Positions 1,410-33,408 of a stretch of 64,000 bases of DNA are shown piece after piece. The stretch lies in assembly GCF_000238795.1 (NCBI RefSeq), contig NZ_AFNK01000035.1, forward strand, positions 126,001-190,000. The letters are read 5' to 3'. A program made the translations under genes and the position numbers. Position 1 is the stretch's first letter; each line of letters starts with the position of its first letter. The notes under the pieces are model-generated. The model did not search any database and had not been told where the DNA came from. It was given only the letters and a program-made list of their open reading frames with translations. This stretch comes from Haemophilus sputorum CCUG 13788 (GTDB lineage: Bacteria > Pseudomonadota > Gammaproteobacteria > Enterobacterales > Pasteurellaceae).

Positions 1410-1416
1410 TTTTCAA

Positions 1417-1459: not shown

Positions 1460-1488
1460 CCCTTATTTACTTTTTAGAGGATAATTAT

Positions 1489-3311: not shown

Positions 3312-3335
3312 ACAAATTGTGAGGTCTAAATCTAC

Positions 3336-3800: not shown

Positions 3801-3818
3801 CCCAATAAGGGGGAAATT

Positions 3819-4613
3819 ATGCGTTTAATTGATTCAACTGCCATCATTCACCCTACTGCGATGGTTGCAGATGGGGCTGAAATCGGCGCGAAAGTAGAGA
3901 TCGGGGCATTTTGTGTTATTGGTAAAGATGTCAAGATCGGCGCTAGAACAAAAATCCATAGCCACGTTGTCATCGATGGTATTACTGAAATTGGTGAAGA
4001 TAACCATATCTTCCAATTCGCAAGCATTGGTGAAATCAACCAAGATTTAAAATACCAAGGTGAGCCCACTAAAACAATTATTGGAAACCGTAACCGTATT
4101 CGTGAAAGCGTGACCATTCACCGTGGTACCGTTCAAGGTGGTGGAATTACCCGTGTTGGCGATGATAACCTCTTTATGATTAACAGCCACATTGCTCACG
4201 ACTGTAGCATCGGTAATCGTTGTATTATTGCAAATAACGGAACACTTGCAGGCCATGTTACCCTTGATGATTTTGTGATTGTCGGCGGAATGTCAGCTAT
4301 TCACCAATTTGCAGTTATTGGCGCACATGTGATGCTCGGTGGTGGTTCAATGGTTAGCCAAGATGTTCCTCCTTACGTGATGGCACAAGGCAACCATGCT
4401 CGCCCTTTTGGCATTAACTTTGAAGGGCTAAAACGCCGTGGTTTTGATAAACCAGCAATGCATGCAATCCGTGCAGTTTATAAGCTTTTATATAGCAGCA
4501 ACAAAACGGTTGAAGAAGCCTTACCAGAAATCGAACAAATTGCTGAAAAAGAACCCGCAGCAAAAGCTTTTGTGGATTTCTTCAAACGCTCAACTCGCGG
4601 TATTATCCGCTAA
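3819..4613 (+). CDS. lpxA: Acyl-ACP--UDP-N-acetylglucosamine O-acyltransferase
   Basis: First step of lipid A synthesis: O-acylation of UDP-GlcNAc. It has 264 residues, against 262 in E. coli. The N-terminal two thirds is a left-handed beta-helix of hexapeptide repeats. [15 protein letters not shown] holds the catalytic histidine, and the C-terminal ~70 residues are the helical domain ([19 protein letters not shown]). A strong AAGGGGGA ribosome-binding site precedes it. In E. coli and H. influenzae lpxB follows; here a terminator and the convergent cydD gene follow instead, so lpxB must lie elsewhere. Confidence 0.97.
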
Positions 4614-4630
4614 AGAAATGCTAAAGAAAT

Positions 4631-4652
4631 GGGGCTAACATCTGTTAGCCCC
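4631..4652 (+). terminator. Rho-independent terminator after lpxA
   Basis: GGGGCTAACA, TC loop, TGTTAGCCCC, then ATTTTTTC. A strong 10-bp stem with T-run lies 18 bases after the lpxA stop and just before the end of the convergent cydD gene. Confidence 0.9.
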
Positions 4653-4659
4653 ATTTTTT

Positions 4660-6405: not shown

Positions 6406-6421
6406 AATTATTAAAATAGAA

Positions 6422-6447
6422 AGCACAAGCTCATTAGAACTTGTGCT
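6422..6447 (-). terminator. Terminator between tamB and cydD
   Basis: On the minus strand AGCACAAG, 10-base loop, CTTGTGCT, then TTCTATTTTAAT. It sits 5 bases after the tamB stop and separates tamB from cydD. Confidence 0.7.
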
Positions 6448-6452
6448 AAAAA

Positions 6453-9400: not shown

Positions 9401-10412
9401 GAAGATGCATATCTAGTGGATACTGATCCGCTAATGTTAATTTCCCCTGCCCTTCAATTTTTCCCTGATCGCTATCAACACTAAGCTGCTGTAAAGTCAC
9501 ATTTTGATCGTTGGCACTGGCTTGTAACTTCAAGCTATGTAATACAAAAAGAGATTCTGCTTTTTCCGCTTTTGTTTGTTGCTCAATACGAACTTGGTTA
9601 ACCTCAAGTTGAGGAATTTCAAAATCTAATGGCAGGCGGATTTGACTAGCTTTCGTCAATAACGGTTTAGAGAGCTGCGCTTTTAACGCTTCCCAATCCG
9701 TTTTCGTTTGAGAAGCGGTCGAATTTTCTGCCTCTTTTACAATTTTTTCTTCTTTTTGAACCGCTTGTATTTCATTTGCTTGTGGAAGCGAAAGAACAAA
9801 ATCGTTTAAGGCGGTAGGATGCAAACTGAGTTTACGGCCTTCGCCACTAATACCAGAATGAAAATGTCCTAATTGCATATTCATGCCATCAACCTCAACT
9901 TGAATGTTATCAAGCGAGAGCTGGTTTAATGCAATCGGTAATGGAAGCTTTAATTCAGTAAAGGGTTCACTATTATCAGGTTCTTCTTGAGCAGGTGGAA
10001 GTTTAGTGGTATCAACCGTAACATGCGCATCTTTCAACGCCACCGTTTCTAAACAAACCTTACCTGACAATAAGCAACCAAAATCAATATGTAAATTAGC
10101 CTGCCCTAATTTTACATTGACGCCATCCATTTCATATTGCGCATCAGATAAAGTTAGCCCAGATTGAATACTGCCCTCAACAGCACCAATACTCAAAGCA
10201 TCAAGTGATTTATCAGCCCATTCAATAGCTGTACGCTGACCAAAGCCTGTCATTAGAAAAGCGATAGGGGTAAACACGACTAATGACAAAGCGCCACCAA
10301 TACGGCAGCACCAACGTTTTTTCCGACTTTTTTTCACACCAGATGCTGCCGTTTTCGATTCTTCACTTACAGCAGGTGCGTTTTCACGATTCTGTTCTTT
10401 CTCTTGATTCAT
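6453..10412 (-). CDS. tamB: TamB, inner-membrane-anchored lipid transfer/translocation protein
   Basis: AsmA-like protein spanning the periplasm from an N-terminal inner-membrane anchor to TamA in the outer membrane; implicated in autotransporter assembly and in phospholipid transport to the outer membrane. It has 1319 residues. A cytoplasmic basic stretch (KKSRKKRW) precedes one transmembrane segment (~residues 37-58). A very long run of amphipathic beta-strands follows (the lipid groove). The C-terminal DUF490/TamB domain covers roughly the last 380 residues (GLYGQVNLLKGRFASFGQDL, SYLLTGRSLENSG, ending LMYRFEFD). It starts 3 bases after the tamA stop, so it is cotranscribed with tamA. Confidence 0.95.
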   Translation of the reverse strand: MNQEKEQNRENAPAVSEESKTAASGVKKSRKKRWCCRIGGALSLVVFTPIAFLMTGFGQRTAIEWADKSLDALSIGAVEGSIQSGLTLSDAQYEMDGVNVKLGQANLHIDFGCLLSGKVCLETVALKDAHVTVDTTKLPPAQEEPDNSEPFTELKLPLPIALNQLSLDNIQVEVDGMNMQLGHFHSGISGEGRKLSLHPTALNDFVLSLPQANEIQAVQKEEKIVKEAENSTASQTKTDWEALKAQLSKPLLTKASQIRLPLDFEIPQLEVNQVRIEQQTKAEKAESLFVLHSLKLQASANDQNVTLQQLSVDSDQGKIEGQGKLTLADQYPLDMHLHADVPTLKAFGIPASKADLALSGALFDETKLNLSTQGAAALTLDGGVKLAEPRTPLHLTLKSEGMQYPFMPEKGQEPLKLQNLNVSLSGDLLDYQLATAVKSSGMNLPPAALNLKGKGTLTQFNIEDLNLNALEGKTQLTGLVDWADGVSWQSKLNLNGVNSKSLVPDWAAVLNGQLESSGYAGRGKNGEEWQVDVKKVDLNGLLNQRHLQLKGQLSSQTNNLLNVPGLDLQYGENHIAMSGHLGDKSDFNAQIKAPNLQGLVPNLKAEMNGNVKLSGKIAEPNVDLDLVAKNVSFDAMKLQSLTAKGQVKTEKNIQGDVNLDLRQFSYNDIKLDQAQLAVKGSEGNHQLKLTSKGNPVGANLQISGKFDRLQETWSGQLTQAQIQTTDYGNFHADKPVAITYQNKLVSANISAHCWQHNQLNLCFPTAFTAGQEGKVPFELRRFDLAFVQQFLDKSSQITGLVNAKGEAAWFKNKAPVVDVTLNSESLKFVQKMEGGSAFPLTISPLKATVKLADNNLNLKTDLKLENNGRIATDLVMKDLSKTRGLSGTVNIDQISLKLIKPLLTGGERVDGLINARLTLGGSATAPLLHGRLGLSELRVKSATMPFDVTGGNVDLNFNGTSSTLNGRVQTTESELFLTGNANWQDLSAWRTEVHAKANRFRVNVPNIAKVEFSPDISVTATPKELILGGVIDIPWARIEVEELPESAVGVSSDEVIMDGSAKTKVPFSQRQLPEQTSSGMAIKSDLKINIGDDVSLNAYGLKTHLNGTIAVRQGKQGLGLYGQVNLLKGRFASFGQDLLIRKGVIQFAGLPSQPTLNFEAIRNPEAMEDPSVTAGVKVTGIADNLNVKVFSDPQTSQDQALSYLLTGRSLENSGEAGSSNSMAAALLSMSLSKSAKTVGKVGSTFGLNDLSVSTAGIGDNTKVEVSASLTPKFRVKYGVGIFAPLTELTLRYTLTPKLYLQWVSSVNQAVDLMYRFEFD

Positions 10413-10415
10413 ATC

Positions 10416-12308
10416 TTAAAGCTCCGAACCTAAGCCGATATAAAAATTCAAACCAGATTCGTTATTAGGTGATTTTACCGGACTCGCAAGATCAAATTTT
10501 ACTGCCCCAATTGGCGAAGCCCAACGTACGCCAACACCTGCACCAGAATGTAAATTTGAACGTTTAAAATTATTTGCCGCTAAACCAGTATCATAGAAAA
10601 TTGCAGCCCACCAATTTGATATCACTTGGTATTGATATTCAAGTGTTCCGGTTGCTAAGTGAGTACCACCAATTTTTTTACCGTTTCTAGGATCTTTCGG
10701 CGTAATATCTTTATAACCAAAACCACGTACGCTCATATCACCGCCGGCAAAATAACGTAATGCAGGCGGAATGCGATGGAAATCATTTGAATGAATATAG
10801 CCAACTTCACCCCTTAAATAAATGCGATGATTTTTAGCATAGGTTCTTACCCATGCCGTTGAAGCTTTGTAGCTATAAAAATTCACATCTGAGGCTAACG
10901 CTTTTGTTCCCCAGTTAACGGTGAGTTTTTGGCTATCTCCCCATAATGGGAAACGGTTGCCATCGCTGCGAGTACGATTTAATGAAGCGGTCGGATAAAT
11001 GAGCAACGTTTTAAATGAATCATTACCTTGCGTAAAGCTATCATAACGAGCTTTCACACCTAGTGAAAACGACCAACCAGTTTCTCGCGTCCAAAAACGT
11101 TGAAACCCTAAATTAGCTGCCGTTGTTTTAGTATCGTTATCATCTTCGCGCTCAATCCCACCAGAGATTTGATAGTAGTAATGTAACGGATCAGAACGCA
11201 ATGGAATGTTATAACCTAACTCAAAACGTTGCTCTGGCTGAGATATATAGGTTTTGCTTTCTAAACTATGCCCACGGCTGTTAATCCATGGCTTTTTCCA
11301 GTTAAATTGTAAACGAGGGCCAACATCAGTTTCAAAACCCAACCCAATTTCCATACTATTTTTCTTTTTTGGATAAAATAGTACGTTTAAATCTACGGTT
11401 TTATTTTCTTCATGAATGGTCGGTTCTACTAATACGGAAGAGAACCAGTTACTTGATGAATAGTCGCTAGTCATTGTAGAAAGATCATTAGTATCGTATG
11501 GATCACCGCTTTTTACTTTTAAAATATTACGTAAGTAATCGTCTCGAATCTGATTATCTGTAAAACGGATTTCTCCATAATGATAACGATCGCCACTATC
11601 ATAGCCTAAGCGCCAGTCTGCTTGATGATCTTGTGGATAAACCTCTAGGCGATGGTAAATCCAATGGCCATCAAAATAACCTTTTCTAAAAGCAAGATTT
11701 TCTATATTACTTTTAAAGCTATCATAAGCTTCATGACTTAACGCCACACCTTTTTTCGGTGCATTTTGTTCTAGCTTAACAAACTCTGAATCTTCTTTAG
11801 CTTGACCTTGAATTTGAATATCTACTTCATCAAGTTTGACTTTTTCATCATCTAAAATCACATTCAATTTTAATAATGATTTTTTGCCCGCGCGCGGCAC
11901 TAGCTCAAAATGATATTGTGTATTGTAATATCCCAAGGCACGCAAGCCTTTATCTACTGCTGTTTGCACCAAATACTGATGACGCTCTGAGCCATCAGCA
12001 TATTCATTCGCAATTTGACCAAGATAAACCTTAACGTTATTCCAAGCAGCTTTATCTTTATTCTTAATACCTTCAACGCTTACATCAACTTGCGCTTCTA
12101 TTTTCTCTTCATCACTTTGTTGATTATTTTGCTCCTGACTCTCTTCAGTTTCTGACGTAGACGCCTCTTCCGTTTTACTTGATTCATCAGATTCCTCTTC
12201 CAATTCAGCGGAAGCGACTGAATCCTCTTCAGATACTGGGGCTTCCTCGGCATAACTAAGTTGATTCCAAGCCATCAAACAACAAAGAGTTAAAAAACGA
12301 AGTTTCAT
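10416..12308 (-). CDS. tamA: TamA, outer membrane BamA-family protein
   Basis: Outer-membrane partner of TamB. The start at 12308 is chosen because it has an AAGGAACAG ribosome-binding site and opens a signal peptide (MKLRFLTLCCLMAWNQLSYA); a longer frame back to 12452 overlaps the upstream gene. The mature protein begins with ~60 residues very rich in Glu, Ser and Thr, not usual for TamA. Three POTRA domains (~residues 65-310) follow, then a 16-stranded barrel with the VRGFGYKD loop motif and a terminal ...LGSEL. It is 630 residues against ~577 for E. coli TamA, and the acidic extension explains most of the difference. Confidence 0.93.
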   Translation of the reverse strand: MKLRFLTLCCLMAWNQLSYAEEAPVSEEDSVASAELEEESDESSKTEEASTSETEESQEQNNQQSDEEKIEAQVDVSVEGIKNKDKAAWNNVKVYLGQIANEYADGSERHQYLVQTAVDKGLRALGYYNTQYHFELVPRAGKKSLLKLNVILDDEKVKLDEVDIQIQGQAKEDSEFVKLEQNAPKKGVALSHEAYDSFKSNIENLAFRKGYFDGHWIYHRLEVYPQDHQADWRLGYDSGDRYHYGEIRFTDNQIRDDYLRNILKVKSGDPYDTNDLSTMTSDYSSSNWFSSVLVEPTIHEENKTVDLNVLFYPKKKNSMEIGLGFETDVGPRLQFNWKKPWINSRGHSLESKTYISQPEQRFELGYNIPLRSDPLHYYYQISGGIEREDDNDTKTTAANLGFQRFWTRETGWSFSLGVKARYDSFTQGNDSFKTLLIYPTASLNRTRSDGNRFPLWGDSQKLTVNWGTKALASDVNFYSYKASTAWVRTYAKNHRIYLRGEVGYIHSNDFHRIPPALRYFAGGDMSVRGFGYKDITPKDPRNGKKIGGTHLATGTLEYQYQVISNWWAAIFYDTGLAANNFKRSNLHSGAGVGVRWASPIGAVKFDLASPVKSPNNESGLNFYIGLGSEL

Positions 12309-12333
12309 ATTCACGTTCTGTTCCTTATAAGGA

Positions 12334-13194
12334 TTATTCTTTTGGAATGCCGCGTAATAAAGGCGTAACATTATTAAATGGCGCAATCGAGGTTGGTGCT
12401 GGCGCACCCTCAAAAATGACAATAAAAGGTTTAACCGGTTCAATTTTTTCATGGCGCCAGAGATGCCCTATGCTGACCAGTTGAATATCTGAAGGCAGTT
12501 CAGCAATGCCTTTTTGCAATACGGCAACACTATTTTTGCGCGGATGCCCAATCATAATGGCTACACCATGTTGACGAGCATATTGCACCGCTCGCTGAAA
12601 TTGCTGCGTAACGTCAGCTAATTCGTTACTATCATCTAAAAAAATGTGTCGTTCTAACGCTGAAATGCCTTGTTTCTGTGCGGTTTGATAAGCCACACTT
12701 TTACCAGTTTTGCTATCTAAAAAGAAAAGTTGCTCTGCTTTCAATGCTTGCATAAAGCGTGTCATCGTTGCTAAGTCTGCCGTAGCGCCACTGCCCATAT
12801 GATTATTTAATCCAATCGCATAAGGCACTTGTTGTCTTGCTTGCTTAAGTAATTGCTCTGCTTCTGCATAGCTTGCCCCGACTTTTAATGCGCCAGCCTC
12901 AATTGGAATATTCGGATTTTGCGGCTGCATCGGTAAATGAATCAAAATATCACGCTGTTGACCATGAGCTTCTTTTGCGCGCGAGAGTGCGTAAGGTGCG
13001 CTAGGAATAATTGCGACACTAACTGCTTTTGGTAAAGCCAAAATTGCGGTATCTTCTTTTGGATGATAACCGATATCGTCAATGACAATCGCCAATTTCC
13101 CTACAGATTGCGCGAAGCTCGCCGTAGAAAAGCCAATAAACATCAGCAAAACTATCGCGAAAAACGACCGCTTGTAAGCCTTAAATATCGCCAT
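12334..13194 (-). CDS. Divergent polysaccharide deacetylase family protein (YibQ-like)
   Basis: A secreted protein of 286 residues with a signal peptide (cleavage near ASFAQS). It carries the divergent polysaccharide deacetylase / DUF610 fold: KLAIVIDDIGYHPKEDTAIL with metal-site-like aspartates, HLPMQPQNP, LNNHMGSG and LFFLDSKTGKSVAY. In E. coli the homologue yibQ also lies directly downstream of envC, suggesting a role in peptidoglycan or envelope carbohydrate turnover; the substrate is unproven. Its start overlaps the envC stop (TAATG), and tamA follows. Confidence 0.88.
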   Translation of the reverse strand: MAIFKAYKRSFFAIVLLMFIGFSTASFAQSVGKLAIVIDDIGYHPKEDTAILALPKAVSVAIIPSAPYALSRAKEAHGQQRDILIHLPMQPQNPNIPIEAGALKVGASYAEAEQLLKQARQQVPYAIGLNNHMGSGATADLATMTRFMQALKAEQLFFLDSKTGKSVAYQTAQKQGISALERHIFLDDSNELADVTQQFQRAVQYARQHGVAIMIGHPRKNSVAVLQKGIAELPSDIQLVSIGHLWRHEKIEPVKPFIVIFEGAPAPTSIAPFNNVTPLLRGIPKE

Positions 13195-14363
13195 TATTTC
13201 ACCAATTTCATCGGGTTAACTGGACTGCCTTTGCGGGTAATCCCAAAATAAAGCCCTGAACGGGTCTGTCCGCCAGAATTGCCTACCGTTGCAATAGTTT
13301 GGCCTGCAGCAACACGGCTGCCTTTACGCACGCTTAAATTCTGATTATAACCATAAAGTGAAATATCACCATTTCCATGGTCAATCGCAACCATATTCCC
13401 ATAACCTTGCAACCAGTCAGACATAATAACTCGCCCGCTTGCAATCGCTTTTACAGGCGTACCCGCATTGGCTGAAATCACCACACCTGTCCAACCATTG
13501 CCAAACGATTGTACAACTTTGCCTGAAACCGGCATGCTATATCCACCTTTTAAACCAGAACCCGCACGAACTTGCTGTTTTTCTTGCTCAGTCGCTTTAC
13601 GGTTTTCTTCTTTATTTTTCTTCGCCTCTAGTGCTGCTAAATCTTGTTTTTCTTGACGCTCAGATTCTCTTGCTGCATTAGCCACTTGTTGTTTTAAAGA
13701 TTCCGCATTTGCTTTTAAGCTATCCAAACGGTTTTCGTCTTGCTCAAGGACTTTATCAATCGATTTTAAAGTAAGCTCACGTTCGTTTTGTACTTTCTTT
13801 AAATCTTTTTCTTGTTTTTTCTGCTCTGTTAACTGAGTTTGTTGACCTTTTTGCTGACCTTGTAACTCATCTCGACGTGCTTTCAATTCTGCTTGTGTGC
13901 GACGAAGTTCATAAATGGCATCAATACGCACTTGGTTGATATGCTCATAATAGGCAGTCATTCGATCCGCATCTTTTGCCGGCTCAGACATCAATCGTTC
14001 TAAAACAGAAGGATGAATACCAGAACGATAAGCAGAGTCTAGCTGCTCTTTTAATTTCTCTTTTTGTTTTTTTTCTTGCTGTTCAAGGCGTTTAATTTCT
14101 TGTTCTGTACGCTTAATGGCTGCACGAATATCTGCCAGTGAGGTTTCTGTATCTTTTAATTTATTGATTACCTTACCCATTTCAATTTCTTGGGTTTTAA
14201 GGGTCGATTGCAATACATTGCGCTTTTGACGGTTTTCGTTAATTTTAGATTGCTGTTGTTTAATCCGTTGTTGAATTTGAGAGAGATCTTCAGCTTGTAC
14301 ATTAAGCATAAAGCCACTCAACATAATCCCTAAAAGAAGACGAAAAAAAGAAGTACAGCGCAT
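13194..14363 (-). CDS. envC: EnvC, murein hydrolase activator
   Basis: Periplasmic activator of the AmiA/AmiB amidases at the division septum, recruited by FtsEX. It has 389 residues: signal peptide ending NVQA, a long coiled coil (~residues 25-265, Gln/Lys/Glu-rich) and a C-terminal LytM (M23-type) domain from about residue 275 (GYSMPVSGKVVQSFGNGWTGVVISA...YFGITRKGSPVNPMKLV). The LytM domain lacks the usual metal ligands, as expected for an activator and not a hydrolase. It is translationally coupled to the deacetylase gene downstream. Confidence 0.94.
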   Translation of the reverse strand: MRCTSFFRLLLGIMLSGFMLNVQAEDLSQIQQRIKQQQSKINENRQKRNVLQSTLKTQEIEMGKVINKLKDTETSLADIRAAIKRTEQEIKRLEQQEKKQKEKLKEQLDSAYRSGIHPSVLERLMSEPAKDADRMTAYYEHINQVRIDAIYELRRTQAELKARRDELQGQQKGQQTQLTEQKKQEKDLKKVQNERELTLKSIDKVLEQDENRLDSLKANAESLKQQVANAARESERQEKQDLAALEAKKNKEENRKATEQEKQQVRAGSGLKGGYSMPVSGKVVQSFGNGWTGVVISANAGTPVKAIASGRVIMSDWLQGYGNMVAIDHGNGDISLYGYNQNLSVRKGSRVAAGQTIATVGNSGGQTRSGLYFGITRKGSPVNPMKLVK

Positions 14364-14476
14364 AATTGAAGCCTATTCCAAAAACAAAATAATAATCAGA
14401 TTATTTTATTCAATTTCTACTAGAAAATCAGCTTTTAGCCTTCCTAGACGGAAGATTATCCATGAGATTTACAAAA

Positions 14477-14518
14477 AAGCGGTGAAATTTGCAAAAAAGT
14501 TTACAAATTTCACCGCTT
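14477..14518 (-). terminator. Inverted USS terminator after rsmA
   Basis: Minus-strand AAGCGGTGAAATTTG, 12-base loop, CAAATTTCACCGCTT, followed by a T-run. A 15-bp stem of two uptake-signal cores lies 22 bases after the rsmA stop. Confidence 0.85.
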
Positions 14519-14540
14519 GATCGATTTTTTATTCTAAATG

Positions 14541-15416
14541 TTAAGCATCTTGCAAATCATCAATAGGCTCAAGTGCCTCTAACGATTCAGGTGGGTTATC
14601 ACACAACCAATTTGCTAAACGCGCATAATCAGCAATACTGAGATTTTCTGCGCGTGCTATTAATGACACACCTAACGCCTCTAACTGTTCTGCGCTAAAC
14701 AAGGTTGAAAGCGCATTGCGTAAAGTTTTACGGCGCTGGTTAAATGCTTGTGTGGTCACACGATTTAACCAATAAATATCTTTTACTGGATGTGGTAACT
14801 CCTTATAAGGCATCAATCTCACTACCGCAGAATCTACTTTCGGAGCAGGTTTAAACGCCGTTGGTGGAACCTCTAAAACTGGCATTACTTGGCAATAATA
14901 TTGCGCCATAATAGTTAAACGGCCATAAGCTTTACTATTCGGCGCTGCGCATAAACGTTTTACTACCTCTTTTTGCAACATAAAGTGCATATCGGTAATT
15001 AAATCGTGAAATTTAAACAGATGAAACATCAATGGCGTTGAAATATTATAAGGTAGGTTACCAAATACGCGCACACCTTCATTTTCAGCTAAATTTAAAC
15101 TCTCAAAATACTCACGGAAATTAAAACGTAAAGCATCTTGCTCAATAATGGTTAATTTCTGATTGATAAATGGATGATGACGTAAACGTTCCGCTAAATC
15201 TCGGTCTAGCTCCACCACCGTAAGTTTATCAACAAGTTCCGCTACTGGCTCAGTTAATGCTCCTAAACCCGGGCCGATTTCTAATAAAAATTGTCCTTTT
15301 TGTGGGTTGATAGCTGAAACAATGTTATGAATCACGTTCATATCATGTAAGAAGTTTTGCCCAAAACGTTTACGGGCGGTATGACCTAAATGCTTTTTAG
15401 AATTAGAATGGCTCAT
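14541..15416 (-). CDS. rsmA: 16S rRNA (adenine1518/1519-N6)-dimethyltransferase
   Basis: Dimethylates two adjacent adenosines in the 3'-terminal hairpin of 16S rRNA during late 30S assembly. It has 291 residues. Motifs: RFGQNFLHD, the SAM-binding [13 protein letters not shown] and the target-adenosine NLPYNIS. The C-terminal helical domain contains [13 protein letters not shown]. It lies downstream of surA, as in E. coli, but pdxA, present between them there, is absent. A short acidic tail ([13 protein letters not shown]) extends the C-terminus. Confidence 0.97.
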
Positions 15417-15445
15417 TATGTGTTTCTTAATTTAAAATGATAAAA

Positions 15446-15465
15446 GGCACAAACGAATTTGTGCC
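15446..15465 (-). terminator. Terminator after surA
   Basis: Minus-strand GGCACAAA, TTCG loop, TTTGTGCC, then TTTTATC; a compact tetraloop hairpin 12 bases after the surA stop. Confidence 0.8.
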
Positions 15466-15476
15466 AAAATATATGA

Positions 15477-16424
15477 TTATTTTCCGTTAACATACTGGAT
15501 TTCAGCCGTTTTACGTAAGGCTTTTACCCAGTCTTTAGAAGCTTCTTGCGCTTGCTGATTTACTAATTGCTCATAAGCTTTTTGCGCATAAGCATCTTCG
15601 GTACGGTCACCTTCACGCAAATCCGTTACTTTTAATACGTGCCAACCAAATTGTGATTTAAATGGTGCACTGATTTGTGACTTACTTGTTTTTGCAGCAA
15701 CTTGTGCAAAATTTGGATCATAAATATCTAAGAAGTTGAAACCTAAATCACCACCATCTGCCGCTGAAGCATAGTCAACAGAATTTGCTTTCGCCGCATC
15801 TTCAAAACTTATTTTTCCAGCATTGATATCTGCAACTAATTGAGTCAATTTTGCCTTAGCTTGAACATCATCTAAAATTGGGGTTGTTTTAATCAAGATA
15901 TGGCTAATGCGATACTCTTGATCTGTGGTTTTTTGCAATTTACCCGCAGCTTTATCTTTTTCTAGCATATCGCGTGCTTGCGCTTGAACTTGTTCAGGCG
16001 CAACTTGAATAGATTGACCAATCGCATCATGACGTACCGCTTCCATCATCATTTGCTGTGCAATTTGATTTTTGAATTGGCTTAAACTAATGCGTTGATA
16101 ATCTAACGCGTCTAATAATTGACCATAAGTTAACCCGTTACGCGCAGCAACTTCTTCAACGGCTTGGTCAACTCGTTTCCAGTCAACTTTTACACCAGAT
16201 TTTTTAATCGCTTCTTGTACTAGAGTATCATCAATGATCGTTTCTAATGCAGCTTTACGGTTTTCTTCTGTATTGGCTTTCTTACCTAATGCTTTAAGCA
16301 CTTGGCTTTCCATAATCATATTACCATTTACAACCGCCATCACGCTTTCTGCCGATGCTGATTGTACTGTTCCTAAAGTCGCAATCATCGCAATCATCAA
16401 TGATTTGATTGAAGTTAATTTCAT
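15477..16424 (-). CDS. surA: SurA, periplasmic chaperone/peptidyl-prolyl isomerase (single parvulin domain)
   Basis: Escorts outer-membrane proteins through the periplasm to BAM. The start at 16424 has an AAAGGAAA ribosome-binding site and opens a signal peptide ending SASA. The N-terminal chaperone core covers ~residues 25-165. One parvulin domain follows (~170-275: YRISHILIKT...DGGDLGFNF...FGWHVLKVTD), then a short C-terminal helix. At 315 residues it lacks the second parvulin domain of E. coli SurA (428 residues); the shorter form is normal for Pasteurellaceae. With skp and bamA at the left edge, the window carries three outer-membrane biogenesis factors. Confidence 0.94.
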   Translation of the reverse strand: MKLTSIKSLMIAMIATLGTVQSASAESVMAVVNGNMIMESQVLKALGKKANTEENRKAALETIIDDTLVQEAIKKSGVKVDWKRVDQAVEEVAARNGLTYGQLLDALDYQRISLSQFKNQIAQQMMMEAVRHDAIGQSIQVAPEQVQAQARDMLEKDKAAGKLQKTTDQEYRISHILIKTTPILDDVQAKAKLTQLVADINAGKISFEDAAKANSVDYASAADGGDLGFNFLDIYDPNFAQVAAKTSKSQISAPFKSQFGWHVLKVTDLREGDRTEDAYAQKAYEQLVNQQAQEASKDWVKALRKTAEIQYVNGK

Positions 16425-16503
16425 GCTAGTTTCCTTTTGTATTTTGTAATGACCTAAAATATTTGCTTGTTTAGAAGCATTGTAGAATAAAAGGTTCAAT
16501 TTT

Positions 16504-17931
16504 CTATAAAGATTGAATTTTCTTAATCACATTGGTAGTTGAACAACCGTTTTCAAAGTTTAACACTTTAACCTCTCCACCATTTGCCCAGACTTCTTCG
16601 CTACCTGCAATCTCTTCCGGTTTATAATCACCACCTTTTACCAATAAATCTGGCAAGATTTCGCCAATTAAGCGTTGCGGAGTATCTTCTGCAAATGGAA
16701 CGACCCAATCGACAGAAGCTAACCCTGCTAATACAGCCATTCGTGCATTCAAGTCATTAATTGGACGAGATTCCCCTTTTAAGCGTTTAACGGATTCATC
16801 TGTATTTACCGCTACAATTAAGCGATCACCTAATTTACGCGCATTTTCAAGATATGAAACATGACCTGGATGTAAAATATCAAAGCAGCCATTTGTCATG
16901 ACAATTTTCTCACCGCGCGCTTTTGCTTCAACAATAATCGCTTTTAACGTAGTTTCATCCATCACACCAAAACCCGTTTCTTCACGATGATGAATAGCAT
17001 TTTCTAGCTCGGTTGGGGTAATTGTTGAAGTACCTAATTTACCTACCACCACGCCTGCAGCGGCATTCGCTAAATAGCACGCTTCTTCATAAGGTCTACC
17101 ATCTGCAATTGCTGTAGCTAATACGCTGATTACTGTATCACCTGCACCAGTCACATCATAAACTTCTTTAGCTTGTGTAGGTAGATGAAATGGCGTTTGA
17201 TTTGGACGAATAAGTGTCATCCCTTTTTCAGAACGCGTTACCAATAAAGCCGACAAGTCAAAATCGGCAATCATTTTTAAGCCTTTTTCAACAATCTCAT
17301 CTTCACTTTGGCAATGCCCTACCACTGCTTCAAATTCAGACATATTTGGGGTTAAAAGTGTTGCCCCACGATAACGTTCAAAATCGGTGCCTTTCGGGTC
17401 GATCAACACTGGCACATTCGCTTGGCGTGCAATTTGAATCATTTGTTGTACGCTTTCTAATGTACCTTTACCATAATCTGACAAAATCAACGCACCGTAA
17501 GCGGTAATTTCTTGCGAAAGTTTTGCAAGTAAATCTGTGCTATCAACATTATGAAAACCTTCTTCAAAATCCAAACGCAAAAGCTGTTGATGGCGAGATA
17601 GAATGCGTAATTTGGTAATCGTTGGATGGGTACTTACCGCTACACAATGGTTTTGGATATGATGGTTGTTTAACAATGTATCCAATGCTCGTCCCGCATC
17701 ATCTTGGCCAATAATCCCATGTAAAGCTACTGGCACATTAAGCGCAGCAATATTCATTGCCACGTTTGCAGCACCACCTGCGCGTTCTTCAATTTCTTGT
17801 ACTTTTACCACTGGCACTGGCGCTTCTGGCGAAATACGATTTGTACCACCAAACCAGTAGCGATCTAACATTACATCGCCTAACACCAACACTTTTGCAT
17901 GATTAAATTTTGGAGAGTATTGCATCATCAT
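16504..17931 (-). CDS. hldE: Bifunctional heptose-7-phosphate kinase / heptose-1-phosphate adenylyltransferase
   Basis: Makes ADP-glycero-manno-heptose for the LPS inner core. Residues ~1-318 are a ribokinase/PfkB-type kinase ([23 protein letters not shown], catalytic [13 protein letters not shown]). Residues ~340-475 are a nucleotidyltransferase ([37 protein letters not shown]). The start at 17931 (MMMQYSPKF) follows AAAGAGAACATT; an ATG six codons earlier has no ribosome-binding site. It lies between der and surA on the same strand. Confidence 0.95.
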
Positions 17932-17980
17932 AATGTTCTCTTTATACATTTATGAGATAGGCTAACAGCCCATCTTTCCA

Positions 17981-19516
17981 CTATCTTTTTGATTTCTTAA
18001 TAAACTTCATCAAACGTTTACGCTTACGTAATTGGCTTGGTGTTAATTTATTACGTTTACCCGCAAATGGGTTATTCCCTTCTTGGAATTGAATGCGAAT
18101 TGGGCTACCAATAATTTTCAAACTCTTACGGAAATAGTTCGATAAATAACGTTTGTAAGAGTCGGCTAATCTATCTACCTGATTACCGTGAATCACAATA
18201 ATTGGTGGATTATAACCGCCTGGGTGTGCATATTTTAATTTCACACGGCGACCATTAACCAATGGTGGTTGATGCTCATCTGAAGCCATTCTTAAAATAC
18301 GCGTTAACATTGAGGTTGAAGTTTTCTGCGTTGCACAAGCATAAGCTTCTTGTACGGACTGAAATAAATTCCCTACACCAGAACCATGTAAAGCAGAGAT
18401 AAAATGCACGCGTGCAAAATCAATAAAATCTAAACGGCGATCTAATTCAGACTTCACTTGATCTTTAATATCTTGCGATAGTCCATCCCACTTATTCACT
18501 ACAATCACTAATGAACGACCTGCATTTAAAATAAAGCCAAGTAGCGATAAATCTTGATCGGAAATACCTTCACGCGCATCAATCGTTAACAACACCACAT
18601 TCGCATCTTGAATAGCTTGAAGCGTTTTAATGACCGAGAATTTTTCAACCGCTAAGTTTACTTTCCCTCTTTTACGCACGCCAGCGGTATCAATAATTGT
18701 ATATTGCTGACCATCGCGCTCCATTGGAATATAAATCGAATCTCGTGTGGTGCCGGGCATATCATAAACCACCACACGCTCTTCACCTAAAATACGGTTA
18801 GTTAGCGTAGATTTACCTACATTTGGACGTCCAACGATGGCAATTTTGATGTTTTTATCCAACACACTTTCTTGCTCTTCGGCAAGCGCTTCATCTAATA
18901 ATGCAGCATCTTCTTCGTTTTCGAAGTCAAAATCGTTATCCCATTCGTCTAAAGAAGCGGTCGGATTTTCTTCTTCATTTGCAAAATCCTCTTCATTTTC
19001 GACCGCTTGATCGGCATTTAATTTCTCGCCTAATGGCGCTAACACTTGCTCAATTAGCTGAGTCACACCACGGCCTTGCGCCGCTGCGATTTGTTCAACT
19101 TCACCTAAACCTAATTGATAAAACTCCGCACAGTGTGAGTCCGCATCAATTCCATCAGTTTTATTTGCGACTACAACTGTCGTTTTATCACGTTGACGTA
19201 AATATTGCGCAATACCAATATCTGCTGGCAATAAACCGGCACGAGCATCTACTAAGAAAAGTACCACATCTGCTTCTTCAATCGCTAATAGCGATTGTTC
19301 TGCCATTTTTTCTTCTACACCTTCTTCTGTGCCATCAATACCGCCAGTATCAATCACAATAAAATCAAAGCCGGCAATATTGGCATGTCCGTATTTACGA
19401 TCTCGGGTAAGCCCCGGAAAATCCGCCACCAATGCATCACGCGTGCGGGTTAAACGGTTAAATAATGTGGATTTTCCCACATTAGGTCTGCCCACTAGAG
19501 CAATTACTGGAGTCAT
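17981..19516 (-). CDS. der: Ribosome biogenesis GTPase Der (EngA)
   Basis: Essential GTPase with two G domains in tandem, needed for 50S maturation. G1 is at the N-terminus ([18 protein letters not shown]) and G2 begins near residue 225 ([22 protein letters not shown]). The KH-like domain is near the C-terminus ([23 protein letters not shown]), and the tail is Lys/Arg-rich ([15 protein letters not shown]). The linker between the G domains is strikingly acidic (~residues 170-220). It is 511 residues against 490 in E. coli. Confidence 0.97.
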
Positions 19517-19856
19517 TTATCCTGTCCTTTCATTAAATCTGTTTGCTACTGCAAAATTGGCTTATTATATACTAAATCCCATTAAATGGCGTGCCTTATC
19601 CTTAAAGCCAGAAAATTTCTCTTGGTAATTTTGTTTAAAAGGGAAGATTTTGTTCATTTACAAATACGCGCATTTGTCCTCGCTTTGTTAAAAAAGATCA
19701 CATTACTAACAGAAGCGCCTAATACACCATAAAACTTACGCAAACATTTACACTTTTACTCACTATTCTTTGCACAAATTGACCCAAAGTGGTTGGACCT
19801 TAGTGTATTCTAGCGCCGTTTTTAAGACTAAGATTGTTCTAAAAAAACCTAGGATG
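19517..19856. other. Upstream part of the der-ribH intergenic region, no gene seen
   Basis: A/T-rich stretch that must hold the der promoter (minus strand). I find no coding frame with a ribosome-binding site. A TTGACC at 19779-19784 is followed 16 bases later by TAGTGT, a weak possible plus-strand promoter. Confidence 0.4.
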
Positions 19857-19888
19857 GTTATCTGCATAATGAGTTATCTGCATAATGA
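19857..19888 (+). repeat. Two tandem copies of a 16-bp repeat
   Basis: GTTATCTGCATAATGA occurs twice head to tail with no change (19857-19872 and 19873-19888). It contains ATAATGAGTTAT, a partial dyad. The repeat overlaps the -35/-10 region proposed for the candidate RNA, so it could be an operator. Confidence 0.85.
19858..19886 (+). promoter_or_regulatory. Possible sigma-70 promoter within the 16-bp repeats
   Basis: TTATCT (19858-19863), 17-base spacer, CATAAT (19881-19886). The -10 matches 5 of 6 consensus positions and the -35 only 3 of 6. Its value comes from the position about 100 bases ahead of an otherwise orphan terminator. Confidence 0.4.
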
Positions 19889-19892
19889 ATAA

Positions 19893-19990
19893 AAATCTTG
19901 CTACATAGTAAGGAAATGTGAATAAAATTTTCGTCGGTCTTTCAAACAACAAAACCCACGATATTAAACATATCGTGGGTTTCTTTTTTT
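19893..19990 (+). ncRNA. Candidate small RNA of about 95-100 nt
   Basis: Inferred transcript from the proposed promoter to a strong Rho-independent terminator, with no credible reading frame. The 5' part is unstructured and A/U-rich, with UCGUCGGUCUUUCAAACAACAA just before the terminator stem. I do not see the conserved core of RyhB or another sRNA I know. A Fur-like or other repressor site in the overlapping repeat is possible but unproven. Confidence 0.4.
19952..19990 (+). terminator. Orphan Rho-independent terminator (plus strand)
   Basis: AAACCCACGATAT, TAAAC loop, ATATCGTGGGTTT, then CTTTTTTT: a perfect 13-bp stem with a 7-T run. No annotated gene points into it from the left, and ribH on the other strand has its own terminator at 20081-20104. 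Confidence 0.85.
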
Positions 19991-20080
19991 AAGGAATCTG
20001 CTGACTGATTGCGCTTTTCCTTCAAACTACAAGCGGTCAAATTTTTCGAAAAAATTGCAAATTTATGCGCAAAAAAAAAC

Positions 20081-20104
20081 AAAAGACAGGCAAGCCTGTC
20101 TTTT
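20081..20104 (-). terminator. Terminator of the riboflavin operon after ribH
   Basis: Minus-strand AAAAGACAGG, CTTG loop, CCTGTCTTTT, then GTTTTTTTTT; 13 bases beyond the ribH stop. Confidence 0.9.
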
Positions 20105-20117
20105 GTGTTCATCTTAA

Positions 20118-20579
20118 TTAAAGTGCTTTTAACACATTTACCATTTCTACTGCGCCTAATGCACATTCTGCGCCTTTGTTACCCGCTTTGGTACCAGCAC
20201 GTTCGATGGCTTGTTCAATGCTTTCTGTGGTTAACACACCAAACATCACTGGCACACCAGTTTGTAATGCCACTGCGCCAATGCCTTTTGCTGCTTCATT
20301 ACAAACATAATCATAGTGCGTAGTTGAACCACGAATAACTGTCCCTAAACAGATCACTGCATCATACTTATCACTTTCTGCCATTTTTTTCGCCACTAGT
20401 GGAATTTCAAATGCACCAGGTACCCAAACGGTATCGATATCATCTTCTGATGCGCCATGACGCACTAATGCATCGACTGCACCACTTAATAACTTATCGT
20501 TAATAAAATCATTAAAACGAGCCGTTACGATACCGAATTTTAAGCCAGTTGCCACTAAATTGCCTGTAATTTTTGCCAT
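20118..20579 (-). CDS. ribH: 6,7-dimethyl-8-ribityllumazine synthase
   Basis: Condenses 5-amino-6-ribitylaminouracil with dihydroxybutanone phosphate, the penultimate step of riboflavin synthesis. It has 153 residues. Family motifs: [10 protein letters not shown] near the N-terminus, [40 protein letters not shown] (with the catalytic histidine) and [12 protein letters not shown]. It is the last gene of the operon, 64 bases after ribBA. Confidence 0.98.
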
Positions 20580-20643
20580 TTTGAAAGTTTCCTTATTGAA
20601 ATAAAATTTGTTTATTTGCCACTTTAATTAAGTAAGCTATTGT

Positions 20644-21843
20644 TTAAAAGTTAAACATATGCCCCATTTTTACCTGTTTTACTTTCAGGTAATCAATGTC
20701 ATTTTTGTTTGGTTCTACGATAATTGGCTCTCTTGAAACAATGTTTAAACCTTGCTCTTTTAAGCCGTCAATTTTACTTGGATTATTCGTTAATAAACGA
20801 ATTGAATTTACGCCAAGCTGTTGGAACATTTGTGCGCCAATATAATATTCGCGCTCATCTTCTTTAAATCCTAACGCTAAATTCGCTTCAACGGTATCCA
20901 TGCCTTTATCTTGCAATTCATAGGCACGTAATTTATTGATGAGCCCAATCCCACGTCCTTCTTGGCGTAAGTAAAGTAACACGCCTCTACCTTCTTGTTC
21001 AATTTGTGCCATCGCTGCAGCAAATTGTTGACCGCAATCACAACGTTGTGAACCAAAAGCATCACCCGTTAAACACTCAGAATGAATACGCGCTAATACA
21101 TTTTCGCCATTTGAAATATCACCTTTGACTAAAGCTATATGCTCTTTGCCTGAGATTACTTCAACAAAACTATGCGCCATAAATTCGCCATATTTGGTTG
21201 GCATTTTCACGACTGAAACTTGCTTTACAAGACAATCATATTTACGGCGATATTCTTGTAACTGCGCAATTGTAATAAACGGTATATTGTGTTCTGTCGC
21301 AAATTTTTGCAAATCTGGCATAGTCATCATGGTGCCATCTTCTGCCATAATTTCACAGCAAAGCCCCGCATGTTTTAGCCCTGCCAAACGCGCCAAATCA
21401 ACAGTTGCTTCAGTATGTCCGTTACGCACTAACACACCACCTTCTTTGGCGATCAGTGGGAACATATGACCCGGACGGCGGAAATCTGAAGGTTTAGCGC
21501 CATCTTCTACCATTTTTAAAGCGGTAATTGAACGCTCAAATGCAGAAATTCCTGTCCCTGTACTAATATGATCAATGGCAACCGTAAATGCAGTTTCATG
21601 ATTATCCGTATTTTTAGCGACCATTGGCGGAAGCCCTAATTTATCCGCAATTTCTTGCGAAATTGGCGTACAAATCAAACCTTTTCCGTGTGTTGCCATA
21701 AAATTGATATTTTCCGGTGTCGCAAATTCTGCTGCACAGATAAAATCGCCTTCATTTTCACGATCTTCATCATCGGTCACTAAAATAATTTTACCTTGTG
21801 CCATTGCTTCCAAGGCTTCTTCTACAGTTGAAAATTGAAACAT
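20644..21843 (-). CDS. ribBA: Bifunctional dihydroxybutanone-4-phosphate synthase / GTP cyclohydrolase II
   Basis: Supplies both riboflavin precursors: 3,4-dihydroxy-2-butanone 4-phosphate from ribulose 5-phosphate, and the first pyrimidine from GTP. The N-terminal RibB domain (~1-200) has [14 protein letters not shown] and [11 protein letters not shown]...[16 protein letters not shown]. The C-terminal RibA domain (~205-399) has [21 protein letters not shown], with the three zinc-binding cysteines, and [10 protein letters not shown]. It is 399 residues, the usual length for the fusion. Confidence 0.97.
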
Positions 21844-21860
21844 AATTTTTCTCTCTTTCT

Positions 21861-22415
21861 TTAAATATTATGTGATTCTAAGCAATCAATCAGTTCATCA
21901 GTGGATAAAATCACCGCAAACTCTTCGTTTAGCGTTGCAATATTGATTTTATGAATTTGCTCGGCATCAATTTCTTCACCATCAGGCATTTTTAACGGGA
22001 AGGAAGCGGTCGCATTTTCAATCAGTTTTACTAAAAAGCCGTAATTAGCTGCCATTCGGATCGTTGTAGAAACGCAATGCGGTAAAGTTAAACCCGCAAC
22101 GACTAGCTCCGTAATGCCTTGGCTTTTCAAATAATCCAACAAATGAGTACCAATAAAGGCACTATTTACCTTTTTCTGAAAAACCACTTCATCATTTTGT
22201 GGTTCAAACCCTGTTTGAAAGGCTTGGGTTTCACCTTGATAAAACAGCGAATTTGGATTATCTGAAATGTGTTGAATATGAATAATCTTTTGTCTTTTTG
22301 CTCGAAAATGTTGCAACAATCGTAGCATTTTTTGTTCAGCATTCAGATTATTCCGCTTTCCCCATTTCGAATCTAAAAATGCATTTTGCACATCAATCAA
22401 CATTAAGGCTTGCAT
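21861..22415 (-). CDS. Isochorismatase-family cysteine hydrolase in the riboflavin operon
   Basis: 184 residues of the isochorismatase/nicotinamidase-like alpha/beta hydrolase fold. The triad is recognisable: Asp in MLIDVQNAF (residue 8), Lys in [12 protein letters not shown], and Cys in [14 protein letters not shown]. The substrate cannot be read from sequence. It lies between ribE and ribBA with gaps of 9 and 17 bases, so it is almost certainly cotranscribed under the FMN riboswitch. The A. pleuropneumoniae rib operon is described as ribGBAH without such a gene, so this could be an added hydrolase that detoxifies a pathway side product, or a passenger. Confidence 0.85.
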
Positions 22416-22424
22416 TTTATTTTC

Positions 22425-23072
22425 CTAAAACCCTGCATTTTTCAGGAAATCTGCTGTAATTTTACTTTGCGGATTCTCTGGCTCTTTCTTCATTAAAAAC
22501 TGCTCAATATATTTGCCAACAATATCATTTTCTAAATTCACGATACTGCCGACTTTTTTACTGCCTAAATTGGTTTGCGCAATCGTGTGAGGAATAATGG
22601 AAACGCGGAATGAATTTTCATCGGTATCCACCACCGTTAAACTAATTCCATCAATAGTAATTGAGCCTTTTTCAATAATATAACGCATCAATTTTGGGCT
22701 TGTTTGAATGCGATACCAAGTGGAATTATGCGCAGGAATAATCTCCACTACCTCGCCCGTGCCATCAATATGACCTGAAACAATATGTCCACCAAAACGT
22801 CCATTAGCTGCCATTGCCCGCTCAAGGTTTACTGGGCTATTAGGTTTTAATTCGCCCAATGATGTTCGCTTAAGCGTTTCTGACATCACATCAGCCGTAA
22901 ATTGATTTTGCGTAAAACTCGTTACGGTTAAACAAACGCCATTTACTGCAATGCTATCGCCTAAATGCACATCACCAAGCACTTTACTTGCGTTAATCGT
23001 GACTACTGCAAATTCGCCCTGTTTATTGATTTGGGCAATTTTTCCTACTTCTTCAATAATGCCTGTGAACAT
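22425..23072 (-). CDS. ribE: Riboflavin synthase, alpha subunit
   Basis: Dismutates two lumazine molecules to riboflavin. It has 215 residues and two homologous lumazine-binding barrels: MFTGIIEEVGKI...GDSIAVNGVCLTV and FGGHIVSGHIDGTGEV...SITIDGISLTVVD...FRVSIIPHTIAQTNLG. I chose the second of two adjacent ATG codons because the family begins MFTGI and the GGAG sequence lies 8 bases ahead of it. Called ribC in E. coli and ribB in A. pleuropneumoniae nomenclature. Confidence 0.96.
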   Translation of the reverse strand: MFTGIIEEVGKIAQINKQGEFAVVTINASKVLGDVHLGDSIAVNGVCLTVTSFTQNQFTADVMSETLKRTSLGELKPNSPVNLERAMAANGRFGGHIVSGHIDGTGEVVEIIPAHNSTWYRIQTSPKLMRYIIEKGSITIDGISLTVVDTDENSFRVSIIPHTIAQTNLGSKKVGSIVNLENDIVGKYIEQFLMKKEPENPQSKITADFLKNAGF

Positions 23073-23088
23073 CATTTATTCTCCTATC

Positions 23089-23205
23089 AAGTCCCCCTCT
23101 TTAGAAAAGAGGGGTTAGGGGAGATTTGATTGCGATGCTTATTTTTCTTATGAGCTTCGTTTTCATTTCTGCCAAATCTCCCATCTTTTTTGTTAAAGAG
23201 GGTGA
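23089..23205. repeat. Inverted-repeat element (MITE-like) between ribE and ribD
   Basis: The left end reads CCCCCTCTTTAGAAAAGAGG then GGTTAGGGGAGATTTG. The right end, read on the other strand, is CCCTCTTTAACAAAAAAGAT then GGGAGATTTGG. These are imperfect terminal inverted repeats of ~35 bp around ~45 bp of unrelated sequence. The left end also forms its own short hairpin (CCTCTTT/AAAGAGG). No reading frame inside. The right end supplies the last codons and stop of ribD. Confidence 0.65.
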
Positions 23206-24287
23206 ATAACTTCATAATCAATCAAAACATCTTCTCCTATCATTTCGATTGAATTCATCTTTAACTTGACAGCCTGAGATAAATCACCGATTCCCTCACC
23301 GCCAATCGGCGTTTTTGCCGCTTTTCCGCCCACTAATTTCGGCGCAATATAGCAATGCACTCGATTGACTACACCGCTTTCTAAAGCACTGAAATTCAAG
23401 CTAGCACCGCCTTCTATCAGCAAGCTATCAATTTGTTTTTCACCGAGCTTTTGCAAAAGATCAGACAAATCTACCCGCCTGTTTTTTGCCTTACAGAGAA
23501 GCACTTCCACACCAAGCGGTTCAAATTTTGCAATTTTTTGTAAATCCTCTGAAATGGTTGCAATAATCGTTGGATAATCTTTTGCTGTTTGTACTAGCTG
23601 GCAATCTAATGGTGTCCGTAAATGACTATCACATACAATTCGCACAGGCTGACGTGCATTTGGCATGCGGCTATTTAGCATTGGATTATCAGCCAGCACC
23701 GTTTCTACACCCACCATGATCGCACGGTATTGATGACGCGTTTCTTGCACTTTAGCTCTGGCTAATTCACCAGTAATCCATTTTGATTCACCTGTACTTG
23801 TGGCAATTTTACCATCAGCGGTCATCGCGTATTTCAACAAAACATAAGGACGTTTAGTTTGAATGTAATGAAAGAAAATAGGGTTTAGCTGATCACACTC
23901 TTCTCGAAGAAAATCTTCAATCACCTCAACGCCCGCTGCACGTAACTGTTTTGCACCTTTGCCGGAAACAAGCGGATTAGGATCTCGAGAACCAATAAAA
24001 ACCTTTTTAATGCCACGCTCAATCAACAAATCTGAACAAGGTGGCGTGCGCCCGTGATGGCAACAAGGCTCAAGAGTCACATATGCCGTTGCATCTGTTA
24101 AATCAGCTTGGCTGTTTAAAATTGCATTACGCTCTGCGTGCCAACCACCAATTTTTTCGTGATACCCTTGTGCAACAATCTCGCCATTTTTAACAATCAC
24201 ACAGCCTACTAATGGATTAGGATTTGTCCAGCCACGTCCTTTTTCAGCTAAGCTGATGGCGCGTCGCATATATTCAGCGTCAGTCAT
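23193..24287 (-). CDS. ribD: Bifunctional riboflavin deaminase/reductase
   Basis: Second and third pathway steps: deamination then side-chain reduction of the GTP-derived pyrimidine. The N-terminal deaminase domain (~1-145) has the zinc motif HAERNAI and PCCHHGRTPPCSD. The C-terminal reductase domain (~150-364) has RPYVLLKYAMTADGKIATSTGESKWITG and LLIEGGASLNFS. The start at 24287 (MTDAEYMRRA) leaves the riboswitch in the 5' leader; an upstream in-frame ATG at 24449 would lie between the aptamer and the terminator hairpin. The last residues (HPL-stop) come from the end of the adjacent inverted-repeat element. Also named ribG. Confidence 0.96.
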   Translation of the reverse strand: MTDAEYMRRAISLAEKGRGWTNPNPLVGCVIVKNGEIVAQGYHEKIGGWHAERNAILNSQADLTDATAYVTLEPCCHHGRTPPCSDLLIERGIKKVFIGSRDPNPLVSGKGAKQLRAAGVEVIEDFLREECDQLNPIFFHYIQTKRPYVLLKYAMTADGKIATSTGESKWITGELARAKVQETRHQYRAIMVGVETVLADNPMLNSRMPNARQPVRIVCDSHLRTPLDCQLVQTAKDYPTIIATISEDLQKIAKFEPLGVEVLLCKAKNRRVDLSDLLQKLGEKQIDSLLIEGGASLNFSALESGVVNRVHCYIAPKLVGGKAAKTPIGGEGIGDLSQAVKLKMNSIEMIGEDVLIDYEVIHPL

Positions 24288-24408
24288 AGATTTTCTTATT
24301 CTCTTAAACGTGAAATATGTTGATTGGGCATAAGAAATACACCCTTTATTTTCAAGGCAGGATCGAGCGTGTATTGCACGCCCTAAAAAAGAGATGCTTA
24401 AATAAAAA

Positions 24409-24434
24409 GCCTTGAAATCAAACGATCTCAAGGC
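24409..24434 (-). terminator. Intrinsic terminator of the FMN riboswitch
   Basis: Minus-strand GCCTTGA, 12-base loop, TCAAGGC, then TTTTTATTT, 45 bases after the aptamer. A second small hairpin (24457-24472, CACCGC-GCAA-GCGGTG) lies between them and may be the alternative or anti-terminator element. The arrangement implies premature transcription termination when FMN is bound. Confidence 0.75.
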
Positions 24435-24478
24435 TTGCAAAAAAGACATAGAAAACCACCGCTTGCGCGGTGCTTTTA

Positions 24479-24592
24479 TCTTCTTCCATCCAGACTATAC
24501 TGTCGGTACTGGAATTTCACCAGTTCCTGCTAACGTTTTATTAGCTCGCGGACTTTACCGCCGATCGGGAATTTCACCCTGCCCTGAAGATT
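24479..24592 (-). promoter_or_regulatory. FMN riboswitch (RFN element)
   Basis: Read on the minus strand the full RFN consensus is present: CTTCAGGGCAGGGTGAAATT then CCCGATCGGCGGTAAAGTCC and GCGAGC, followed by a variable arm, GGAACTGGTGAAATTCCAGT then ACCGACAGTATAGTCTGGAT and GGAAGAAG. It controls the ribD-ribE-hydrolase-ribBA-ribH operon in response to FMN. Confidence 0.97.
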
Positions 24593-24605
24593 AAAATTTT
24601 GTTAA

Positions 24606-33182: not shown

Positions 33183-33393
33183 TCGGATGAAGGTAGCTGG
33201 AGATAAGCGAATCAACGCTTAACCGACGAGGTAAAATCTTTCAGGTGCATAGCAATATGTAAGGACAGTTACTGGACGAACCCTTGGAGAGATCCAATCG
33301 CTCATTTTAATCAGAATATAGAGCGAAAATGGACGCCGAAGGCGCAAATTCATAGCTTTGAATGAAACGCTCAGGCAAAAGGACAGGGGAGAA
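33183..33393 (+). promoter_or_regulatory. Tandem glycine riboswitch (two aptamers)
   Basis: Aptamer 1 (~33183-33269) has GGTAGCTGGAGATAAGCG, the core CCGACGAGGTAAAATC and TCAGGTGCATAGCAATATG followed by TAAGGACAG. Aptamer 2 (~33270-33393) has CCCTTGGAGAGATCC, GACGCCGAAGGCGCAAATTC and CGCTCAGGCAAAAGGACAGG. These are the conserved glycine-binding cores of the cooperative tandem class. It lies in the leader of an AGCS amino-acid symporter gene, a typical target. Confidence 0.95.
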
Positions 33394-33408
33394 AAGTACC
33401 ATTCACTT

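Follow-up and report, generated by a model that had tools for sequence, protein, structure and literature searches.

A probable lineage-restricted der-ribH spacer with a forward-facing terminator and a 16-bp tandem repeat in Haemophilus sputorum

The interval between der (17981-19516, - strand) and ribH (20118-20579, - strand), two gene names assigned by eye, is most probably a spacer restricted to one lineage, in which the terminator would at best close off a short and young transcript of the + strand. It was analysed within a stretch of 64,000 nucleotides of Haemophilus sputorum DNA, hereafter called the window. Taken as a whole, the reading of a junction spacer that holds a real + strand terminator, a recent 16-bp slippage duplication and a short unconserved transcript commands about even confidence. 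Given the terminator, a short + strand transcript is plausible as judged from the DNA; that a functional sRNA of any sort is encoded here seems unlikely, and the evidence does not support a RyhB-type sRNA that is under selection and regulated. The features on which the argument turns are the following.

19564-19592, - strand: probable der promoter, ACGCCA-17-TATAAT, its -10 element within the part matching relatives
19857-19872, no strand assigned: tandem repeat copy 1, 16 bp, GTTATCTGCATAATGA, exact
19873-19888, no strand assigned: tandem repeat copy 2, 16 bp, exact
19858-19886, + strand: putative weak promoter, TTATCT (19858-19863)-17-CATAAT (19881-19886)
19893-19990, + strand: hypothetical transcript, about 95-98 nt long, proposed (start included) from layout and fold
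19952-19990, + strand: intrinsic terminator read from the sequence, with a 13-bp stem, a 5-nt loop and the tail CTTTTTTT
20079-20106, - strand: intrinsic terminator of ribH, 12 pairs and eight T

The first-pass annotation had described a perfect 13-bp terminator with a T tail in a stretch that no gene enters, and the DNA bears this out. The two arms of the stem (19952-19964 and 19970-19982) form 13 pairs, five of them G-C. From 4663 to 24494, the large frames taken as genes all lie on the - strand, and no + strand gene therefore runs into the interval. Two mechanical frames that reach into it were taken as spurious, namely a 99-codon frame antisense to der (19329-19628, +) and a 74-codon frame overlapping ribH (19942-20166, -). 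Because of the latter, the terminator was labeled 'inside gene' in a strong-stem scan of the window, which asked for at least 8 pairs, 4 G-C and 6 T in 8 and whose results were judged by eye. Six orphan faces were obtained in total. Three of them (48975 +, 57032 - and 59754 +) are outside genes and represent the back sides of stems ending an opposite-strand gene, two (46472 + and 24407 -, the latter directly following the FMN riboswitch) are inside predicted frames, and 19952-19990 is the sole stem between genes that presents its better T-tail to a strand on which no gene needs ending. Nothing speaks more strongly for a local transcript of the + strand than this orientation. Against it, a laxer scan of positions 1-20000 found 20 terminator-like sites, no more than the 19.0 of shuffles, although none of the other + strand sites had more than 8 pairs.

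Strong terminators that serve no visible gene are often the 3′ ends of sRNAs, and the predicted fold has features of such an RNA. The segment 19893-19990 folds at -24.0 kcal/mol (z -4.4), a value reached by none of 200 shuffles, and the longer segment 19840-19990 gives a z of -2.8, with 2 of 200 shuffles as low. In the centroid fold the terminator is the main stem, preceded by a 6-bp hairpin. These data bear on a rival explanation in which the interval would encode a trans-acting sRNA peculiar to this lineage, about 95 nt long, with a promoter overlapping the repeat, the doubled 16-mer as operator for some regulator and a middle part (about 19913-19951) pairing with mRNAs. Although unlikely in our estimation, this explanation would account for the small 5′ hairpin, the mostly unpaired middle and the strong terminator with its U-run, for the orphan position of that terminator (19952-19990, +), an intrinsic one as is expected at the 3′ end of such RNAs, and for the exact tandem repeat across a possible promoter. 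With a real hairpin and a repeat in DNA that is unmatched in the related genomes searched, the layout by itself makes a small regulatory RNA possible.

The stem is also terminator-like on the - strand (19983-19951), where it has 14 pairs and a tail, GTTGTTTG, clearly poorer than that of the + strand. It might thus be a relic or a backup without a dedicated transcript, either a second - strand stop behind ribH that insulates der or the leftover of a gene lost at the junction, the repeat being a neutral slip. Other stems of the window are two-faced as well, and the junction nature of the interval (see below) and its lack of recognizable coding content fit such a relic: in the search for a hidden gene, none of the eight interval peptides matched Pfam at E <= 1, and three of the eight gave weak PHROGs matches of unknown function (best E 0.042). 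However, ribH is already provided with an eight-T terminator of its own, and the inferior - strand tail also counts against this reading, which we consider improbable but worth weighing.

Gene order sets the interval apart. While ribH is present in 130 and der in 139 of the 140 family genomes, their adjacency was seen by eye in no family genome listed except the window's own. The nearest ribH-der pair in relatives is about 14 kb apart (genome G006), and in many draft genomes the two genes are on different contigs. Within the genus, ribH and der are found at 1441587 and 1960830 in genome G001, and on contigs C107 and C91 in genome G002. Upstream of der in the six relatives examined lies hemA (named by eye), which in the window's own genome is on contig C17, beside other genes. 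Behind hemA on C17 (locus L185), as judged by eye, a frame of 26 codons precedes the next large frame and would encode the small hydrophobic protein MGTLGYTILTVAFSLGMIVLFASLIF. On this comparison of gene order, the der-ribH interval is a rearrangement junction not seen in relatives.

The interval was compared with 20 stretches from 15 relatives, which it matches at the start of der and its -10 element (19480-19578), at an uptake signal (about 20028-20079) and at the end of ribH; the remaining matches in these stretches are short, with E values of 0.05 or more. The uptake signal ACAAGCGGT occurs in 18 copies in the window versus 0.4 expected, and AAGTGCGGT in 4 copies. The best named match of the RibH protein of the window is that of an Otariodibacter MAG (94%); this match and the uptake signal place the genome among Pasteurellaceae-like relatives. 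Positions 19685-19714 share 27 of 30 bases with an order-level genome (locus L170, around 1500; E 2.6e-4), in a region that we take, by eye, to be mioC-mnmG, which in Escherichia coli contains oriC; this match is possibly due to chance. Two other matches of the left part (L171 and L181) were set aside as coding by eye. A mobile origin was considered and rejected; the segment 19600-20078 has no plasmid or phage match.

The first-pass annotation had set beforehand the conservation of promoter and stem among relatives as a test that could refute its sRNA. A DNA search with 19820-19995 found the window's own genome only (1/61) and none of the 60 other genomes at E <= 0.001, and the test thus went against the sRNA, the control working: GcvB of the same genome, used in the same search, was found in 38 of 61 genomes, namely its own, every one of the 36 relatives from the family and 1 of the 24 remaining genomes. 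GcvB is a generous control, as it is longer and well conserved; a few of the family matches are only 25-31 nt. The 139 other family genomes also gave no match at E <= 0.001, the best non-self E among the matches listed being 0.00106. Conservation in close relatives, which is usual but not obligatory for trans-acting sRNAs, is thus seen in 0 of 60 genomes. Species-specific sRNAs do exist, so that lack of conservation is compatible with function.

At E <= 10 in the 140 family genomes, 29 non-self loci (L083-L111) were examined, none of which has the layout of the candidate. Most of them (21) fall within frames that are 120 codons or longer, two (L099 and L101) lie at the start of citD, so named by eye, and six are outside long frames. 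Among the latter, L086 is GC-rich repeat-like DNA, L089 and L090 represent a stem between genes, L093 is AT-rich DNA, and L087 and L088 are discussed below. A stem match in the same-genus genome G002 (L179) was rejected as a homologue, as it sits within a glutaredoxin-like frame.

A covariance model of the candidate, built from one sequence given twice and hence without covariation, was searched against the 140 family genomes at E <= 0.01, with stricter filters that lose some weak matches. It found 10 of the 140 genomes, including the window's own (137 bits), or 9 of the 139 non-self genomes. The best non-self match, at 42 bits, is at the end of a phosphoglycerate-mutase-like frame. When all nine were aligned, their stem sequences differed from that of the candidate; eight of the nine are at most 150 nt from a frame of at least 100 codons. 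Stem conservation is thus not borne out by the model, whose matches outside the own genome show only differing terminator stems. They belong to the ordinary two-faced intergenic terminators of Pasteurellaceae, with which the candidate shares an A-rich left side, a G-C stem and a T-run; unlike those terminators, the candidate has its better T-run on the side of the gene-free strand. In the window's own genome the model gave two further matches, the reverse strand of the stem and one on contig C81. Taken together, the absence of a homologue by DNA (60 genomes) or by model (139 family genomes) argues against the trans-acting sRNA.

The absence of an Rfam match at gathering score also weighs against that sRNA. 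Rfam found three elements in the window at this threshold, none of them at the candidate. These are an FMN riboswitch before the rib genes (24474-24595, -), a glycine riboswitch (33274-33396, +) and an S15 leader (56683-56804, +). Below the threshold, at E <= 10, the best match for the interval was His_leader (RF00514). Its 31.3 bits (E 0.0037) fall short of the cut-off of 49, and it was rejected: the right neighbour is not a his operon but ribH, on the opposite strand. As it also scores 28.4 bits on the other strand, it is read as a stem-and-tail match. RyhB (RF00057) gave no match at gathering score or among the 23 matches at E <= 10, in agreement with the earlier remark that the sequence is not RyhB. 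No tRNA was found within the window. Elsewhere in it, two - strand frames of about 120 residues each (40363-40722 and 42110-42469) are nearly identical in their first 60 residues and apparently represent a local gene duplication.

The exact 16-bp tandem repeat noticed at first reading is present at 19857-19888. No other direct repeat with a unit of 14 nt or more and copies no further than 40 nt apart was found in the window, and the 16-bp unit is the longest exact unit of a tandem-repeat scan in which shorter exact units of 6, 9 and 11 nt also appeared; on these two grounds it is taken as a real duplication. The exact 32-mer formed by the doubled repeat occurs in no viral contig. The starts of citD in both same-genus genomes (L099 and L101, at 1501-1521) share 20 of 21 bases with positions 19855-19875, around repeat copy 1. 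This 21-mer match beats 500 shuffles; outside the 21-mer, matches as good arise in 30% (L099) and 3% (L101) of shuffles. The genome's own citD is elsewhere, at 89% identity and without stops. The citD match was taken as chance.

The putative -35 hexamer comes from repeat copy 1 and the putative -10 from copy 2. The -35/-10 pair with 17-base spacing claimed in the first-pass annotation does exist, but it is indistinguishable from chance, which argues against the trans-acting sRNA. Scored with sigma-70 frequencies, TTATCT-17-CATAAT obtains 5.63 bits and rank 567 of the 639,650 pairs scored in the window; when its 55 bp are shuffled, 14% of the shuffles match or beat it, and it is missing from the output of a simple consensus promoter scan. 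For comparison, the top scores in selected stretches are 7.93 upstream of der, 6.41 upstream of lon, 9.28 upstream of the riboflavin leader and 10.07 upstream of the S15 leader. Within 19530-19945, three + strand pairs score higher, at 19543 (7.69), 19898 (6.46) and 19779 (6.36), and by our own arithmetic the transcripts from 19543, 19779 and 19898 would be about 410, 177 and 55 nt long. Since these pairs outscore it and 41% of shuffles of 19530-19945 reach the best promoter score of that segment, a transcript may start at any of several sites.

Regulator sites were sought in 19600-19990 with 19 consensus strings, and for each string the top two sites were considered. None of the 19 stands out at the tandem repeat, a further point against the trans-acting sRNA with its proposed operator. 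Off the repeat, three weak leads, an ArgR-like site (13/16, at 19917), a PurR-like site (12/16, at 19738) and a DnaA-like site (8/9, at 19917), have 37, 10 and 19 equally good counterparts in the window, respectively. The best Fur box, at 19881 (-), matches 12 of 19 positions of the consensus GATAATGATAATCATTATC, a score equaled by 190 window sites. With no Fur box and hexamers indistinguishable from chance, the suggestion of a RyhB-like regulated promoter is not supported. What holds of the sRNA reading is the strong + facing terminator without a visible gene; the regulated promoter and the conservation do not.

RyhB belongs to a similar size class and has a U-rich 3′ end; the candidate differs from it by the lack of an RF00057 match and of a Fur box. 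In its layout the candidate is reminiscent of HrrF, which is about 97 nt long, intergenic, ended by an intrinsic terminator and provided with repressor sites near its start (PMC4144887). According to that report, HrrF is a Fur-regulated sRNA of Haemophilus influenzae, located between pmbA and hpt and conserved in Pasteurellaceae, with three Fur boxes within 41 bp (PMC4144887). In contrast, the candidate lies at the der-ribH locus, has no Fur box and has no match in relatives. Its identity with HrrF was rejected on indirect grounds, namely the different locus and the fact that many of the 139 unmatched family genomes should carry HrrF according to the same source (PMC4144887). In the window's own genome, the region 3′ of pmbA, recognized by length and by eye (L199), is too short to accommodate HrrF and shows no Fur box above 12/19, and for the other PF01523 gene the best Fur box (14/19) is about 1.3 kb off, inside another frame. 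Rna01 of Actinobacillus pleuropneumoniae, a species of a related genus, is an 86-nt sRNA encoded between sbcB and eriC, and many Pasteurellaceae have homologues of it (PMC9577009). Like the candidate, it is intergenic and has a terminator with a U-run (PMC9577009); the candidate differs in its locus and in the lack of a homologue in the genomes searched. The candidate is thus neither HrrF nor Rna01, being set apart by place and by lack of conservation. In the portions of the literature covered, including those of PMC4144887, PMC9577009 and PMC4986893, no report of an sRNA between der and ribH was met.

The interval might alternatively encode a tiny protein, from a GTG-start frame of 24 codons at 19918 (MNKIFVGLSNNKTHDIKHIVGFFF) behind TAAGGA. 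The frame is open and TAAGGA resembles a ribosome-binding site. Moreover, 19908-19932, in the middle of the candidate, match 23 of the 25 bases of GTAAGGAAAAATGAATAAAATTTTC, found at 1501-1525 of L087 and L088 in two genomes of another genus; GTAAGGAAAAATGAATAAAATTTTC has the pattern of such a site plus a start. In a third genome (L105), a start resembling it is followed by a longer frame. However, the spacing between TAAGGA and GTG is short, the frame crosses the terminator stem, the frames behind that start in L087 and L088 are short and mutually different, and the peptide has no Pfam or PHROGs match, which makes this reading very doubtful indeed.

In the preferred reading of a modest spacer, a rearrangement would have joined ribH and der at a junction holding the + facing intrinsic terminator and the recent slippage duplication. 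RNA polymerase would start weakly on the + strand between about 19570 and 19930 and be stopped at about 19989, which would yield a short unconserved transcript and keep the polymerase out of ribH. We infer here that the transcript exists, where it starts and that it lacks a selected regulatory role. Against this reading, one would not quite expect a spacer to keep a strong terminator unless some useful RNA were made there. A newborn sRNA gene, for which the joining of ribH to der would have been followed by a 16-bp duplication that made a promoter, with its -35 in copy 1 and its -10 in copy 2 at the right distance, before a ready terminator, and so gave rise to a new regulated RNA in a single lineage, is also conceivable from the arrangement of the letters, yet highly improbable. 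If the transcript exists, the locus would be an sRNA gene confined to a single lineage, and its sequence would record how a tandem duplication gave birth to a promoter. If it does not, the locus would call for caution, showing that a regulated sRNA should not be called from no more than a good terminator and a repeat between genes.
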